Below are positions 24,660-49,725 of a DNA stretch of 57,655 bases, piece by piece (position 1 is the first letter of the stretch; each line of letters begins with the position of its first letter). This stretch comes from Ekhidna sp. (GTDB lineage Bacteria; Bacteroidota; Bacteroidia; Cytophagales; Cyclobacteriaceae), in NCBI GenBank assembly GCA_014323825.1, contig JACONI010000099.1:101258-158912 (forward strand), written 5' to 3'. Under the pieces are notes generated by a model that was given only the letters and a program-made list of their open reading frames with translations, did no database searches and was not told where the DNA came from. A program made the translations under genes and the position numbers.

Positions 24660-24953
24660 ATCAGCTGTAAATATTCAGGTTGCAATAATACTAACCGAAC
24701 AGCACTGCGTCCAAACTGTTCTTTAAAATAGATTCTCTTAATATCAGCTATTACTAACAAATGATATGTTTTGCATCATATATGTAGGAGCCATAGGTAA
24801 GGCTACAGTTTCTGAAAGGGCCTACTGATTTTTGCCCCCCCCTTCAAATCAATACGCCTAATAAAGAACCTTCAATCTCCCCGATATTTATAATGTTAAA
24901 TTAAGCCAATAAATATAATTAGAATAATTACTTTTACATACAAATCTAAAAAC
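24660..24953. other. Intergenic region between tpiA and the M3 peptidase, with a C8 tract
   Basis: The divergent starts of tpiA and the peptidase lie 294 bases apart, so both promoters must be here. A run of eight C lies at 24835-24842 and a short AT-rich stretch precedes the peptidase start (about 24895-24945). I see no RNA gene or clear operator. Confidence 0.5.
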
Positions 24954-27077
24954 ATGAAAAAATTAATTTATATGTTGGCTATTACAGTCTTTGCCGGCTG
25001 TCAGACACCATCAGAAACATCTACTATGGAATCAACAGACAATCCATTCTATCAGGAGTGGAATACGCCTTATGGCGTACCGCCTTTTAAGCAAATTACC
25101 GATGAGCACTATGTGCAAGCCTTCGAAGATGGCATGGATCAGCAGTTGGAAGAAGTAGAAGAAATTGCCAATAATGCGGAGAAAGCCACCTTTGAAAATA
25201 CCATTGCCGCAGTTGAAAAATCCGGGGAACTACTAAAGAAAGTAGGAGGTGTCTTCTTTAATTTAACTTCCGCACACACCAATGATTCTTTAAAAGGGAT
25301 CTCACGTATGATCAGCCCAAAGCTATCTGCACACAATGACAATATTTTCTTAAACAGCAGTTTCTATCAGCGAGTTAAATCACTTTACGACCAACGAGAA
25401 TCGCTGGGATTAAACGAAGAGCAAAATAAACTGCTTGAGAACTACCATACCGGATTTGTGAGGGCAGGTGCTGCACTGAGTGAAGAGGAAAAGGAAAAAA
25501 TGAGAGGCCTGAATGAGCAACTTTCCTCTTTGACGGTCAAGTTTGGTGAAAATGTCCTCAATGAAACCAATACTTTTGAAATGGTCCTTTCGGAAGATCA
25601 ACTGGACGGACTCCCCGAAAGCGTGAAAGCTGCCGGAGCAGACGCTGCCAAAGAACGGGGACAGGAAGGCAGATATATCTTCACCACTCACCGTCCCAGT
25701 CTGTATCCATTCATCACCTACTCTACCCAAAGAGCATTAAGAGAGAAGTTGAAGAAAGGCTACATCTATCGGGGAGACAATGATGATGAGAATGACAACA
25801 AAGAACTGGTTCGTCAAATTGTGAATATAAGACTAGAGAAAGCCAACCTGCTTGGTTATGAAACCTGGGCAGATTACGTCTTACAAGAACGCATGCTCAA
25901 TACTCCCGAGAAGGTGTACAACCTGCTGGATAAAGTATGGCCTGCGGCTATCAAAGCGGCCATAAAAGAGCGAGACTTAATGAATGCAATGGCAGAGAAA
26001 GAGGGAAATGACTTTGAAATTATGCCATGGGACTGGTGGTACTATTCGGAGAAAATCAAGATGAAGCAGTACAACCTGGATGAAAATGAAATCCGCCCTT
26101 ACCTGAAAGTAGATAATGTGATCAACGGAACCTTCACCTTAGCAAACAAACTTTTCGGGATGACCTTTGAAGAGCAAACGGATATTCCAAAGTACCATCC
26201 GGATGTAAGAACCTACACCGTAAAAAATGAAAAAGGCGAACTAATTGGAGTATATCTATCCGATTGGTTCTACCGAAGCAGCAAGCGTGGCGGTGCATGG
26301 ATGAATACTTTCCGAGATCAAAGCAATATGGATGGTAACAATATCATCCCTATCGTAACGAATGTGGGGAACTTTACCAAACCAACCGGAGATACCCCTT
26401 CCCTGCTATCTCAGGATGAAGCAAGCACACTTTTCCACGAGTTTGGACATGCACTACACGGATTGCTTTCGGAATGTACCTACCCCTCTATTTCGGGAAC
26501 CTCCACTCCAAGAGATTTTGTAGAGTTCCCTTCACAAGTGATGGAAAACTGGGTATTCGAGCCGGAAATGCTAGCTCTTTATGCGTTTCACTACAAGACT
26601 GGTGAAGTGATGCCTGCTGAATTAGTAGAAAAAATCAAAAAGGCCGGTACCTTCAACCAAGGATTCGGGACGGTTGAATACATGGCTGCTTCGTACCTGG
26701 ATATGGCTTATCATACGATCACCGAACCTTTAGCCGAGGGTGCCGATATTGATGCATTTGAAAAAGCTGCAATGGATAAGATCGGAATGATTGATGCAAT
26801 CGTGCCAAGGTACAGAACAGGATACTTCCAACACGCATTCTCCGGTCCGGAAGGCTACTCTTCCGGTTATTACAGCTATTTGAACTCCGAGGTGATGGAT
26901 GCAGATGCTTTTGGTGCGTTCAAAGAAAACGGACTTTTCGATGCTGCCACCGCAGCGGCTTACCGAAATGAAATTCTTTCGAGAGGAGGCACACGAGATG
27001 CAATGGAGATGTATGTGGCATTCCGGGGCAGAGAACCGGAATTCGAAGCAATCTTGGTGAGAAGGGGATTTAAGTAA
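24954..27077 (+). CDS. M3-family peptidyl-dipeptidase / oligopeptidase, lipoprotein
   Basis: A 707-residue zinc metallopeptidase of the Dcp type. The N terminus is a lipoprotein signal ending in the lipobox VFAGC (Cys near residue 16), so it is anchored in the cell envelope and probably releases dipeptides from imported or shed peptides. The zinc site is FHEFGHALHG (HEFGH at residues 495-499), with the third ligand expected in the downstream EFPSQVMENW. The typical N-terminal NPFYQEWNTPYGVPPF and the C-terminal GYYSYLNSEVMDADAF are present. Length fits the family. It stands alone as a transcription unit. Confidence 0.95.
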   Translation: MKKLIYMLAITVFAGCQTPSETSTMESTDNPFYQEWNTPYGVPPFKQITDEHYVQAFEDGMDQQLEEVEEIANNAEKATFENTIAAVEKSGELLKKVGGVFFNLTSAHTNDSLKGISRMISPKLSAHNDNIFLNSSFYQRVKSLYDQRESLGLNEEQNKLLENYHTGFVRAGAALSEEEKEKMRGLNEQLSSLTVKFGENVLNETNTFEMVLSEDQLDGLPESVKAAGADAAKERGQEGRYIFTTHRPSLYPFITYSTQRALREKLKKGYIYRGDNDDENDNKELVRQIVNIRLEKANLLGYETWADYVLQERMLNTPEKVYNLLDKVWPAAIKAAIKERDLMNAMAEKEGNDFEIMPWDWWYYSEKIKMKQYNLDENEIRPYLKVDNVINGTFTLANKLFGMTFEEQTDIPKYHPDVRTYTVKNEKGELIGVYLSDWFYRSSKRGGAWMNTFRDQSNMDGNNIIPIVTNVGNFTKPTGDTPSLLSQDEASTLFHEFGHALHGLLSECTYPSISGTSTPRDFVEFPSQVMENWVFEPEMLALYAFHYKTGEVMPAELVEKIKKAGTFNQGFGTVEYMAASYLDMAYHTITEPLAEGADIDAFEKAAMDKIGMIDAIVPRYRTGYFQHAFSGPEGYSSGYYSYLNSEVMDADAFGAFKENGLFDAATAAAYRNEILSRGGTRDAMEMYVAFRGREPEFEAILVRRGFK

Positions 27078-28759: not shown

Positions 28760-31236
28760 TTATCGCTTCACAAACTTCAGCAGATGCCCGTCCGGCAGTT
28801 GGATCAGGTATAGGCCGCTATGCAGAGAGGCTGCATCTATCTTTGTGTTCGTGGTGCTCTTCAGCACTAACTCCCCGCCTACGCTCAGGATGCGGATCGG
28901 ACTTTCCACGGGAGACTGCACCTCCATGTAACGCCCCGAAGGATTAGGGAAAACCACTGCTTCCACTGCATCATCCGTTGCACTCAGCGGCTTGCTCTCT
29001 TCCGGCGGACATGCGGTAATCGTCACGGTCTGTGTTTGTGTAGCTGTATTGCCTGCCTTATCGGTGAAGGTCCAGGTGATGGAGGTGTTGGAGGTAATAG
29101 GGAAAGTGGTGACATCAGATGTGGCTGTTATATTTCCATCACAATTGTCTGTAGCGGTGGGTTCGGTCAGGTCCGCTTCCGCAAGCGAACATGCGGCGGT
29201 TAGTGCCGTCAGACGATTTGCAACCGGCATCGGAGCCTCATCGGTGATGATCACTTCCTGCGTTTGCGTAGCCGTGTTTCCTTTACTATCCCTGTACATC
29301 CACGTGACGGTGTGGCTGCCTGTTGTAGTAAAAGCGGAGGAAAGTGTGGTAGCTCTAATGGTCTGCCCCGAGCAACTCATAACGGTGGGGACAGTCAGGT
29401 CATCCCGAACATTGATGCGACATGGTGAGGGCACTTCCGGCAAGGGGGCTGCCTCAGCCCCCAGCACACCTGCCAATTCATCTCCCCAGATGTCCCATCG
29501 CTTATCACGGGTGAGTTTTTCCCTTGCAGCCTCGCCTGCGCAGGTGTAATGTTTTGGTGCGCCAAAAGAGATGTCGGAGGGTATTTGGGTCTCGCCCGCC
29601 TCTGTGTCTAAGGTGCTCCACCCAATCAGCAGCGCATCGTAGTTTTCGGAAGAGATGGAGGTATTGCCGGAAAACATGTTGTTCATATCTGTCACGCTGC
29701 TCACGTCCCATCCGCTGAGGTCTTGGTTGAAGGCAGCAGCCCCATTAAACATGCCTTCCATATCTGTCACGCTGCTCACGTCCCATTCGCTGAGGTCTTG
29801 ATTGAAGGCAGCAACCCCACTAAACATGCTTCTCATATCTGTCACGCTGCTCACGTCCCATTCGCTGAGGTCTTGGTTGAAGGCACGAGCCCCACTAAAC
29901 ATGTTTACCATAGTTGTCACGCTGCTCACGTTCCATTCGCTGAGGTCTTGATTGAAGGCAGCAACCCCACTAAACATGCTTCTCATATCTGTCACGCTGC
30001 TCACGTTCCATTCGCTGAGGTCTTGGTTGAAGGCAGCAGCCCCACCAAACATGCTGGACATAGTTGTCACGCTGCTCACGTCCCATTCGCTGAGGTCTTG
30101 GTTGAAGGCAGCAGCCCCACTAAACATCCATGACATAGTTGTCACTTTGCTCACGTCCCATTCGCTGAGGTCACCGTTGAAGGCAGCAGCCCCACTAAAC
30201 ATGCGGGACATATCTGTCACTTTGCTCACGTTCCATTCGCTGAGGTCACCGTTGAAGGCAGCAGCCTCATTAAACATGTAGGACATAGTTGTCACGCTGC
30301 TCACGTCCCATTCGCTGAGGTCTTGGTTGAAGGCAGCAACCTCACTAAACATGTAGGACATAGTTGTCACTTTGCTCACGTCCCATTCGCTGAGGTCTTG
30401 ATTGAAGGCAGCAACCCTAGAAAACATGCTTCCCATAGATGTCACTTTGCTCACGTTCCATTCGCTGAGGTCTTGGTTGAAGGCAGCAGCCTCAAAAAAC
30501 ATGTAGGACATAGTTGTCACTTTGCTCACGTCCCATTCGCTGAGGTCACCGTTGAAGGCAGCAGCCCTAAAAAACATGCTGGACATATTTGTCACGCTGC
30601 TCACGTCCCATTCGCTGAGGTCACCGTTGAAGGCAGCAGCCCCACTAAACATGTGGGACATATCCGTCACGTTTGAAAGGTTGGGGCTTCCTGCCTCCTC
30701 GGCAATGGTGAGGCTGCGGCATCCCGCAAACGCTAACTCCATGGAAGTCCATTGGTTATCCCCCCATTTTTCGACGGATCGTATCTGCCCCGCCTCCGCA
30801 GTCGCTACGAATCCTCCAAAACTGTTGAGTGCCCCGAATCGGATACGCGGAAACGTGCCGCTGATGGTTACGGTGTGGGTGCCTGGTGTAACGTATTGGT
30901 GGGAAGCATCTCCGTTGTAAGTGTTGTTATCGGCAGGTTCATCTTCCCCCCAATCTACGGTGTAGCTGTAGCCGTCTCCTGTGGTGGGAATGGTAATGGT
31001 TTCATTATCAGCAGTTGTCTGCCACGTGGTAATGAAGGGTTTCGGGTCGTCTTGTGCCTGCCCAAAGAGAGCGATCAGAATAGTGAAGATTAAGAAAAAG
31101 GTATTTTTTGGAGATAGGATTATATTATAGGGGGGGGGGGCATTAAATTAAGCCCGTACAGCCCTTTCGGCAGCGTGTGTGACGTGTTTTTCTTATTCAT
31201 GATGTCTTTTGATATTTTTTTATTTAACGTGCTCAT
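28760..31236 (-). CDS. BspA-like T9SS surface protein 1, putatively phase-variable (out of frame as assembled)
   Basis: Reading from the ATG at 31236, the leader MSTLNKKISKDI ... LPKGLYGLNLMPPP enters an 11-base C run (plus-strand G, 31130-31140) and then hits a stop after 38 residues. In another frame, directly after the run, a signal peptide core (NTFFLIFTILIALFGQAQ) opens a continuous protein. It has a PKD-like domain (YTVDWGEDEP ... GTHTVTISGTFP), thirteen 25-residue BspA/DUF285 repeats (AFNQDLSEWDVSSVTDMRSMF type), HYR-like domains with GNTATQTQ, and a type A T9SS tail ([10 protein letters not shown] ... GHLLKFVKR). The total length is two bases over a multiple of three. A tract of 12 or 9 C would give 825 or 824 residues. 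Role inferred: exported surface adhesin or ligand-binding protein. Its tail is nearly identical to those at 47571 and 56967. Confidence 0.85.
29675..30660 (-). repeat. Thirteen 75-bp tandem coding repeats (BspA/DUF285)
   Basis: Each unit encodes AFN(G/Q)DLSEW(D/N)VS(S/K)VT.M..MF. Units are highly similar at DNA level (CATTCGCTGAGGTC and GTTGAAGGCAGCAGCC recur on the plus strand), so unit gain and loss by recombination is likely. Confidence 0.9.
31130..31140. repeat. Poly-G/C contingency tract, 11 bases, in BspA-like gene 1
   Basis: Eleven G on the plus strand, so eleven C in the gene, between the coding leader ending LNLM and the signal peptide core. Eleven puts the leader two bases over frame (or one short); 9 or 12 would be in frame. 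The equivalent tract occurs at 49665-49675 in the paralogue. Confidence 0.85.
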
Positions 31237-31834
31237 AGCTTTTTATTTTAGTTGGTATGAAATACAATGTTACATTATTTTTTTGAATTATCATGCAAGT
31301 TTTTTTATTTTTTTGAGCAACTAAGATGCTCTCGTCGTTAGTTAAACCTTGAAGGCTGCTTTGACGGAACTATTTTTGAGTTAACATTTAATTTTTCAAT
31401 ATTTTTTTAATTCGTACCGTAACCTTTGAATTTGTTTGTATATTTGTCCAACATAATTGTAATAGTTTTAGATTAAACATAAAGGGAAGATCCAATTACG
31501 GGTCTTTCCTTTTTTATGTCCTTACCCCCTCGTCAAATGTAGTTTGTAACTATACCTTTATGTTCTTCTCCCGCTGATTGCGCAGATGGGCGCAGAGTCT
31601 CCGGGTGTCGTTTGCAAATTCACTTCTTGTAAAGCGTTCAGGAGTCATTTTTGTCTGTCTAGCGGTTATTTTTGGGTCTCATCCTGAAACAGATTGACAA
31701 AAAAATACTACATTTACACTTGGGTTGCTCGGAAATCACTAAATAACTTCGTACAAATAAGTTTTTTTGGAGTTTGAGCAGAGCCTCTTTAATTTTAATC
31801 AAATTTCAGTTTTAAATTTTTTAAATTAACAGTT
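31237..31834. other. Long AT-rich intergenic region upstream of the prolyl oligopeptidase
   Basis: About 600 bases without a convincing gene. It holds the promoter region of BspA-like gene 1 at its left end, a TATATTTG box (31439-31446), a strong hairpin with T run (31482-31515), and a segment resembling dispersed genomic repeats (CCGCTGATTGCGCAGATGGG, near 31572). The part before 31835 is AT-rich and should contain the oligopeptidase promoter. Confidence 0.45.
31482..31515 (+). terminator. Hairpin with T run, intrinsic terminator or small transcript end
   Basis: AAGGGAAGATCC, a six-base loop, GGGTCTTTCCTT and then a T run. No gene on this strand ends here. With the TATATTTG box 36 bases upstream, this could delimit a transcript of about 60 bases. 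Confidence 0.55.
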
Positions 31835-47570: not shown

Positions 47571-49725
47571 TCACTTCTTCACAAACTTCAGCAGATGCCC
47601 GTCCGGCAGTTGTATCAGATACAAACCGCTGTGGAGGAAGGCTGCATCTATCCTTGTGTTTGTGGTACTTTCCAGCACTAACTCCCCGCCAAGGCTCAGG
47701 ATGCGAATCGGGCTTTCCACGGGAGACTGCACTTCCACGTAACGCCCCGAAGGATTGGGGAAGACTACTGCTTCCTTCGTATCGTCTGCCGCACTTAGAG
47801 GTTTATTCTCCCCCGGTGTTGCCGGCGGACAGTCTGTAATCGTCACCTGCTGCATTTGTGTAGCGGTGTTGCCCGCTGCGTCGGTATGTGTCCACGTGAT
47901 GGTTCTGTCGGCTGTAATGGGAAAAGCATCGGCAGTGACATCATGGGTAACGGTAACCTCTCCCGGGCAGGTATCCGAACCGGCAGCGGGTGCAGCGGCA
48001 TTTACTTCAGCTTCCGCAAGCGAACACCATGCGGTAATGGCATCCAAGGTGCCTGTAACTGTCGGAGCCTCGGTGTCGTCTATGGTCACCTGCTGTGTTT
48101 GTACAATGCTTTTGCTATTATGGGTATAGGTCCATGTAACGATGGTGCTTTCGGTAATGGGGAAGCTGCTGACATCATGCGTAGCCGTGACCGTCTCACC
48201 CGCTCCTACAGTGCAGCTGCTTTTAGCCGTGGGAGCGGTGAGGTCATTGGCAGTGACTTCACACTGTGCCTTCACTGCCTGTAGGGCTGCTGCGTCCGTC
48301 CGTATGGGGATTAACTCATCACCTGCGATAGTCCAGGAATGCGGGTCGGAGGTGAGCGCGTCCCTTCCCGCTTTGCCTCTACAGGAGTACTTAGCCGGTG
48401 CGAAGAATCTGATGCCGGAGGGGATTTGGGTCTCGCCCGCCTCCCTATCTAAGGTGCTCCATCCAATCAGCAGCGCATCGTAATTTTCGGAAGACATGGA
48501 AGAAGCCTCCTGAAACATGCTCCTCATAGTTGTCACGCTGCTTATATCCCATTTGATGAGGTCTTGGTTAAAGGCAGCAGCCTCAAAAAACATGAACCGC
48601 ATATCCGTCACGTTTCTCACGTCCCAGTTGCTGATGTCTCCGTTGAAGGAAGAATTGGCAAACATGAAATTCATATCCGTCACCTTGCTTACATCCCATT
48701 TGCTAAGGTCTCCGTTGAAGGTAGAAGCCCCCTGAAACATGCTGCTCATATTCGTCACGCTGCTCGTGTTCCAGTTGCTGAGGTCACCGTTGAAGGCAGA
48801 AGCCCTCAAAAACATGCTTCTCATATTCGTCACACTGCTCGTGTTCCATTTGCTGAGGTCACCGTTGAAGGCAGAAGCCCTCAAAAACATGGCTAACATA
48901 CTCGTCACGCTGCTCGTGTTCCAGTTGCCGAGGTCACCGTTGAAGGCAGAAGCCGTGAAAAACATGCTTCTCATATTCGTCACGCTGCTCGTGTTCCAAT
49001 TGCTGAGGTCACCGTTGAAGGCAGAAGCCAACGAAAACATGTTGCTCATATCCGTCACGCTGCTTGTGTTCCAGTTGCTGAGGTCACCGTTGAAGGCAGA
49101 AGCGCTAGCAAACATGTATGACATATCCGTCACGCTGCTCGTGTTCCAGTTGCTGAGGTCACCGTTGAAGGCAGAAGCCTCCTCAAACATGCCCACCATA
49201 TCCGTCACGTTTGAAAGGTCCGGGACTCCCGCATCATCGGCAATGGTGAGGCTGCTACAAAAGGCAAAAGCATCTCCCATGGAAGTCCACGCTATATCTC
49301 CCCACTTTTCAATGGATCGTATCTGCCCCGCCGCAGTAGTCTCTACGAGAAATCCGTCGCTACTAATTCTCCCGAATCGTATGCGTGGAAAGGTACCGCT
49401 GATGGTAATGATGTGTATTCCTGCCGTGGCATATTGATGGGAGGCATCTCCGGTGACGTTGTTATCCGTATTGCCGTCCCCCCAGTTTACGGAGTAGCTG
49501 TAGGTCTCCCCGTTGGCGGTAGGAATGGTAATGGTTTCGCTGGCAGTGGTTGTCTGCCAAGTGGTGATGAAGGGTTTTGGGTTGTCCTGCGCCCGTCCTA
49601 AGAAAGCGAGGAGCAGTATGGAGATGAATAAAAAGATATTTTTTGGAGATAAGATTAGACTATAGGGGGGGGGGGATTAAATTAAGCCCGCACAGCCCTT
49701 TCGGAAGTGTATATAACGTGCTCAT
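47571..49725 (-). CDS. BspA-like T9SS surface protein 2, putatively phase-variable (out of frame as assembled)
   Basis: Reading from the ATG at 49725, the leader [17 protein letters not shown] enters an 11-base C run and stops after 21 residues. The large frame, starting right after the run, has a signal peptide core ([18 protein letters not shown]), a PKD-like domain, nine roughly 25-residue BspA/DUF285 repeats ([21 protein letters not shown] type), three HYR-like domains and the type A T9SS tail ([10 protein letters not shown] ... GHLLKFVKK). Length is one base over a multiple of three; 10 or 13 C would give 717 or 718 residues. It is paralogous to the gene at 28760. The leader has ATC where gene 1 has an extra ATG just before the tract, so the upstream MSTL start is the one they share. 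Confidence 0.85.
48520..49190 (-). repeat. Nine 75-bp-type tandem coding repeats (BspA/DUF285)
   Basis: Units of the form [18 protein letters not shown], with GCTGAGGTCACCGTTGAAGG recurring on the plus strand. The three C-terminal units resemble the gene 1 type (WDVSKVT, WDISSVT), so the array looks like a mosaic. Confidence 0.85.
49665..49675. repeat. Poly-G/C contingency tract, 11 bases, in BspA-like gene 2
   Basis: Eleven G on the plus strand between the leader (GLNLI) and the signal peptide core. With 11 the leader frame meets CTA TAG immediately; 10 or 13 would connect it to the surface-protein frame. Confidence 0.85.

Follow-up and report, generated by a model that had tools for sequence, protein, structure and literature searches.

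Gene 1, a predicted surface-protein gene on the minus strand of the window (the whole stretch of 57,655 nucleotides of Ekhidna sp. DNA that was analysed), is interrupted near its 5' end by a run of 11 cytosines, and this raises the question of whether the run is a switch that sets expression of the protein or a sign that the gene is miscounted, dead or started elsewhere. The earlier note had proposed that the gene is phase-variable and that this assembly holds it in the OFF state. As an inference, this proposal is supported by the layout that gene 1 shares with its paralogs, the occupation of all three tract phases, the existence of in-frame copies and the differences in tract length between near-identical copies. 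We conclude that the C11 tract parts a leader from the frame of the surface protein and likely is a slipped-strand phase-variation switch predicted to be OFF in this assembly, a reading to which, based on the sequence, we assign a probability of about 80%. Moreover, gene 1 belongs to a system that extends across the genome.

All features of the locus described here lie on the minus strand. A promoter-like element, TAACATTG (31265..31272), is located ~30 bases upstream of the leader ATG at a place that is kept in an alignment of 40 paralogous leaders (consensus TATAnCTTTGCA), and we take it to resemble, with one mismatch, the Bacteroidota -7 motif TAnnTTTG. It is followed by a putatively translated leader of 32 open codons (31141..31236), which starts at the ATG at 31236 and contains further in-frame ATGs at 31200 and 31143, the latter directly before the tract. 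The leader frame runs into the C11 tract (31130..31140), the predicted slipped-strand switch, and is closed by a TAA (31120..31122) after exactly 38 residues, giving the peptide MSTLNKKISKDIMNKKNTSHTLPKGLYGLNLMPPPPII. In another frame, a protein of 789 residues (28760..31129, stop included) begins directly after the tract with YNIILSPKNTFFLIFTILIALFGQAQDD, a stretch that by eye is signal-peptide-like; the predicted signal peptide (31052..31129) occupies a position shared by the paralogs. The first ATG in the protein frame is at 30742 and opens an ORF of 660 residues (28760..30742), and it is the form truncated to this ATG, without the signal peptide, that is found in the protein database searched (entry P0013); gene calling on such assemblies can miss signal peptides, as happened for gene 1. 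Re-reading of the minus strand bore out the earlier description of the leader with its two extra ATGs, the C11 tract, the stop after 38 residues, the protein of almost 800 residues starting at the tract and the lack of an ATG in its frame before 30742, and the frame arithmetic, by which 12 or 9 C would join leader and protein, is right. Gene 1 thus has two features of an SSR contingency locus, a homopolymer of slippable length in what would be the coding 5' end and a reading frame, hence a full-length product, that as judged from the DNA is set by tract length. At C11, the signal peptide is not in frame with the start, and in this respect gene 1 as assembled falls short of a type IX cargo.

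In the domain scans, gene 1 matched PF03382 with 514 bits (cut-off 25) and, with 13 stretches, TIGR02167 with 253 bits (cut-off 30), which makes it a member of the DUF285/PARCEL family. The domain scan placed the best DUF285 stretch at 30089..30442, a HYR_4C domain at 29018..29185 and a T9SS type A sorting domain at 28787..28954, and the tail scored 28.5 bits for PF18962 (cut-off 27) and 24 bits for TIGR04183 (cut-off 23), as expected of a type A sorting signal. The designation BspA-like in the earlier note holds in one sense: 'BspA family' is the NCBI label on homologs of gene 1. It fails in the narrow sense of LRR_5 repeats, because the repeats are DUF285/PARCEL and the Pfam scan found no LRR family in gene 1 at E 0.001. 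A second PARCEL gene in the window, also on the minus strand, has the same layout, with the gene 1 leader carrying an in-frame deletion (49676..49725), a C11 tract that is likewise out of frame (49665..49675) and a frame of 697 residues (47571..49664) with a signal-peptide-like start directly after the tract; its tail remains below both cut-offs (PF18962, 25.1; TIGR04183, 20.6). In a paralog elsewhere in the genome (L222), the signal peptide is in frame with the start and the tail scores 23.4 for PF18962, below the cut-off. Neither of two full-length searches contained, among the 120 matches listed, a near-identical counterpart of gene 1 from another source, and the in-frame leader region compared with 5.8 billion proteins gave two matches only, both from this genome. 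Two Ekhidna sp. proteins (P0067 and P0104) are marked partial and start immediately past the tract position or further downstream, which is compatible with contig breaks at tracts. In the relative CP030886.1, no PARCEL gene was present beside the RlmL-like gene among ORFs of at least 200 aa, and this genome therefore provides no orthologous tract.

The window contains nine overlapping matches to G/C runs of eight compared to 0.81 expected, and the entire genome contains 108 C/G runs of at least nine compared to ~8.6 expected from the dinucleotide composition of the window. Among 59 genomes examined, congeners G001-G008 have 0-2 such runs, congener G009 has 37 (30 of the 37 tract places, all listed, were read) and the remaining genomes have 0-19. 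DUF285 matches number 119 in this genome and 9, 10, 17 and 41 in four of G001-G008 (G009 lay outside this search); because these four DUF285-bearing congeners have just 0-1 runs of at least nine per genome, being a PARCEL gene does not in itself entail a tract. For the analyses below, we collected 109 distinct tracts; 100 of the 108 were listed and fetched, a few of the other eight were also found, and the collection includes tracts following an N, which are absent from the count of 108. The genome very probably is the MAG GM202BCY1, Ekhidna sp., from a Lamellodysidea sponge from Guam, and the bacterium is probably a sponge associate. Passages of the paper on this MAG report two more MAGs assigned to the same species by AAI (SP5BCY1 and SP12BCY1), type IX secretion and many cadherin proteins (PMC7313196), and its main text has no match to 'phase variation', 'BspA' or 'leucine-rich repeat'. 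We considered loss of mismatch repair as a source of the long tracts; because MutS and MutL are both intact, being full length and without stops, repair loss does not explain the tracts. A C8 run at 24835..24842 in the window has a leader-like context and lies upstream of a gene (24954..27077) that we take to encode an M3-like peptidase. Its GAAAGGGC context had suggested a dispersed non-coding repeat (REP/MITE), and this origin was rejected because most other tracts share one site in gene families, with frames open on both sides.

Outside TonB-receptor genes, at least 85 of 102 tracts sit after one of six short leader types (the script assigned 87, of which one was a false match and one is doubtful). 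The gene 1 leader accounts for 42 tracts, the MMFYFII leader for 24 and the four others for 5, 6, 6 and 2. The tract is followed either by an ordinary signal peptide, then by PARCEL repeats in the cases looked at, or by a lipoprotein signal peptide, and in all 56 clean family loci (at least 60 open codons) a signal-peptide or lipobox ending was present within 50 codons of the tract. The one lipoprotein scanned (L114) contains cadherin domains. Leaders and bodies mostly keep to set pairs, with a few exceptions that are mixed across the tract. The gene 1 leader precedes a lipoprotein at C111:18299, a PARCEL body follows another leader at C117:10219, MMFYFII leads into a different lipoprotein at C85:7916, and at C52 and C95, which have duplicate flanks, a rare leader stands in front of a PARCEL-type start. 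Because leaders and bodies are mixed across the tract, we suggest that the tract is also a recombination joint.

Several observations touch on the range of these loci. An MMFYFII-family lipoprotein gene with an out-of-frame C12 tract (C99:100508) lies ~750 bases to the left of the window, and a C11 run lies out of frame inside a gene that by eye is methyltransferase-like (L112; C104:634). The same genome also has seven tract-free PARCEL genes (L229-L232, L235, L238 and L239) that are open from the ATG into the signal peptide and are probably always on. Seven of the 109 tracts lie in genes for SusC-like TonB receptors. These G tracts (among them L044, L051, L101, L121 and L037), presumably inside a carboxypeptidase-regulatory-like domain, are 11-13 long in this genome, and three of the four clean ones are in frame. 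In G009, a tract of 15 occupies the same spot of a SusC-like gene (L187) and is soon followed by a stop; this copy may be dead. Some G009 tracts (L189, L207 and L212) are not part of a coding leader but precede a gene with an ordinary start codon and signal peptide; from this position, they could act on transcription or initiation.

To determine tract phase, we took the longest ATG frame reaching the tract as the leader frame. From the 109 tracts, we left out 39 at gaps or contig ends and the four clean TonB-receptor tracts, and dropped from the remaining 66 four that were unrelated and six with fewer than 60 open codons or without a leader, giving 56 clean loci. The tract joins leader and body in frame at 11 of these loci and out of frame at 45, of which 27 fall in one wrong phase and 18 in the other; in the gene 1 leader family, 7 of 30 are in frame. 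The overall in-frame share is somewhat below one third (11/56, p = 0.03; without duplicate flanks 9/50, p = 0.02), a shortfall not expected from plain random phase and thus a point against the switch model in its simplest form. The in-frame copies include a natural gene of 662 aa composed of leader, prolines, signal peptide, PARCEL repeats and tail, as well as one of 482 aa for a cadherin-domain protein with a lipobox. In addition, one locus (L220) has an interrupted tract and a single continuous frame across leader and signal peptide.

The leader is likely translated, as supported by its regular length, the openness of its copies, the shared promoter-like element, the lack of start codons between tract and signal-peptide core in its family (see below) and the in-frame fusion in L220. 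Exactly 32 codons are present in 34 of 40 paralogous leaders, and we met no closed copy of the gene 1 leader among the 40 leaders aligned and the 43 tracts assigned to this type by script. Because the 40 leaders were picked by an open frame, this openness is partly by construction; of the other three script-assigned leaders, two are open, although interrupted by gaps, and the third cannot be typed with confidence. Speaking against translation, among 51 distinct leader variants, 16 are synonymous (31%) compared to 27% expected, so that purifying selection on the leader peptide was not detectable in this set; stops number 0 compared to ~1.5 expected. Also against it, a single base is missing ahead of the second ATG in one of the 40 leaders.

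Tract length differs between copies that are otherwise identical, as expected of contingency loci; this feature was found between paralogs of loci other than gene 1 only. On contigs C66, C90 and C94, the 174 bases before the tract and all 262 available bases after it are identical while the tracts have 11, 13 and 13 Cs, respectively. More generally, among the 20 pairs whose flanks are identical for 40 bases or more on either side, tract length differs in 13; these pairs overlap and thus are not independent. Several scaffold gaps repeat the tract on both sides, some with unequal lengths (12 and 13, 11 and 12, 13 and 14). We considered these as length variants within the sample; because most of the repeated stretches also carry base differences, they look like paralogs rather than alleles. 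We note that the sequence around tracts is identical between contigs C52/C95, C90/C94 and C13/C62, in some cases as far as the contig end, which points to an assembly broken at repeats together with recent duplication or gene conversion.

These data bear on four alternatives to a switch. If the out-of-frame copies were permanently dead genes, their frames should be decaying, and this is the case for two clearly decayed loci (C24:922 and C105:7239) and for the 6 of 28 out-of-frame loci (those with at least 390 codons of DNA) in which the frame spans just 81-349 codons. Because the other 22 of these 28 loci keep at least 350 open codons, most out-of-frame genes are not decaying, and with the two genes in the window keeping 697-789 codons, we consider permanent death highly improbable. 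No more probable is constitutive synthesis of the protein from a non-standard start codon that lies beyond the tract. At a locus of another family (C112:6552), an ATG immediately precedes the signal-peptide core and could bypass the tract, and across all families an ATG, GTG or TTG is present between the tract and the signal-peptide end, mostly in the core, at 28 of 56 loci. By contrast, 22 of 30 paralogs in the gene 1 family have none of these codons in this interval, and the remaining eight have them only inside the hydrophobic core. Also, an in-frame ATG precedes the signal peptide in the seven PARCEL genes of this genome that lack a tract and in the PARCEL genes looked at in congeners G001 and G008.

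The two remaining alternatives concern how the tract is counted and how it is read. The tract length in gene 1 was taken from an Illumina-based metagenome assembly, and the true tract might be in frame and the homopolymer miscounted. Sections of PMC7313196 describe Illumina HiSeq sequencing of the sponge samples, with PacBio reads for the Hormoscilla genomes; in addition, 39 of the 109 tracts coincide with a scaffold gap or a contig end. In stretches that were mostly chosen around tracts, G/C runs of at least seven are found near 21 of 37 gaps, and in 209 kb elsewhere near two of five. A miscount by one is possible for gene 1 taken alone, but an artefact throughout would require miscounts at 45 of 56 loci, and the surplus of tracts at one position in the genes is independent of their exact length. 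We therefore regard an assembly artefact as very unlikely. Somewhat less remote, albeit still unlikely, is that RNA polymerase or the ribosome slips on the C run and thus yields a steady fraction of full-length protein irrespective of tract phase. Such slippage would fit with the occupation of all three phase classes without enrichment of in-frame copies and with the long open frames kept in most out-of-frame genes. However, it predicts that about one third of the loci are in frame while fewer were found, by itself it leaves the tract-length differences between near-identical copies unexplained, and it has been described mainly on A/T runs. A slipped-strand phase-variation switch is the reading that we prefer over these four.

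In the working model for such a switch, the transcript would begin a short distance ahead of the leader ATG (31236), at the putative promoter, and ribosomes would read through the leader and the tract. Slippage during replication, presumably reversible, would in some cells make the tract a multiple of three and thereby join the leader via a few prolines to the signal peptide; the joined protein would be exported by Sec and then by type IX secretion to its predicted location at the surface. With other tract lengths, translation would end a few codons past the tract. Because the layout of leader, tract and signal peptide recurs in dozens of genes, each cell would be predicted to show its own random subset of surface proteins, and random switching between ON and OFF likely affects many of these proteins in the bacterium.

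In the poly-G/C loci of Neisseria, Campylobacter and Helicobacter, 5' ends are mostly unrelated. In Ekhidna, one leader is found at 42 tracts, with the lengths known from one assembly. Otherwise, those loci resemble the ones described here in having homopolymers in surface genes and large repertoires, and in N. meningitidis variation has been confirmed by deep sequencing for 115 genes, as stated in passages of PMC5084427. The nearest precedent that we met is a suggestion made for PARCEL lipoproteins of Mycoplasma (M. agalactiae MAG1330 and MAG3260; M. capricolum), for which a poly-G tract near the start is described in a section of PMC2996958. As in Ekhidna, these are PARCEL/DUF285 surface proteins; there, they are lipoproteins of Mollicutes and few genes are named, whereas in Ekhidna the leader types are common to dozens of genes from several protein families and a T9SS-like tail ends each of the PARCEL proteins scanned. 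Phase variation of surface structures within the Bacteroidota is described for Bacteroides, including B. fragilis, mainly in the form of DNA inversion by recombinases, and passages of a phase-variation review name no homopolymer switch in the phylum (PMC11868660). Passages of a survey of reading-frame transitions with 20 Bacteroidetes species name no such system (PMC3711429). In Listeria, inlA has a homopolymer near the start of a surface gene, and a frameshift there cuts the product to eight residues; unlike in Ekhidna, this is a 5' poly(A) in a single gene, according to excerpts of PMC2831843. No homopolymer phasome in Bacteroidota was found in the titles and abstract starts of the open-access matches listed. 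The mechanism is that of a classical contingency locus, and relative to these open-access matches, the scale, the phylum and the shared modular cassette appear to be new.

Most known cases of slipped-strand phase variation come from host-restricted pathogens. Here, a tract set of Neisseria size is present in an uncultured, apparently sponge-associated bacterium of the Bacteroidota and is concentrated on predicted secreted and surface proteins. We tentatively suggest, at somewhat less than even odds, that one portable cassette of promoter, short translated leader, poly-C tract and signal peptide, copied to sites before dozens of genes for secreted or lipid-anchored proteins of different families, generates a random surface code of many switches in which the poly-C tract serves both as the switch and as the joint at which leaders and bodies are swapped, and that a large homopolymer phasome of this kind would be without precedent in the Bacteroidota and among sponge symbionts. 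Candidate pressures would be phage, predation or recognition by sponge cells. If this is true, bacteria of an invertebrate without adaptive immunity would also pay for a random surface code.
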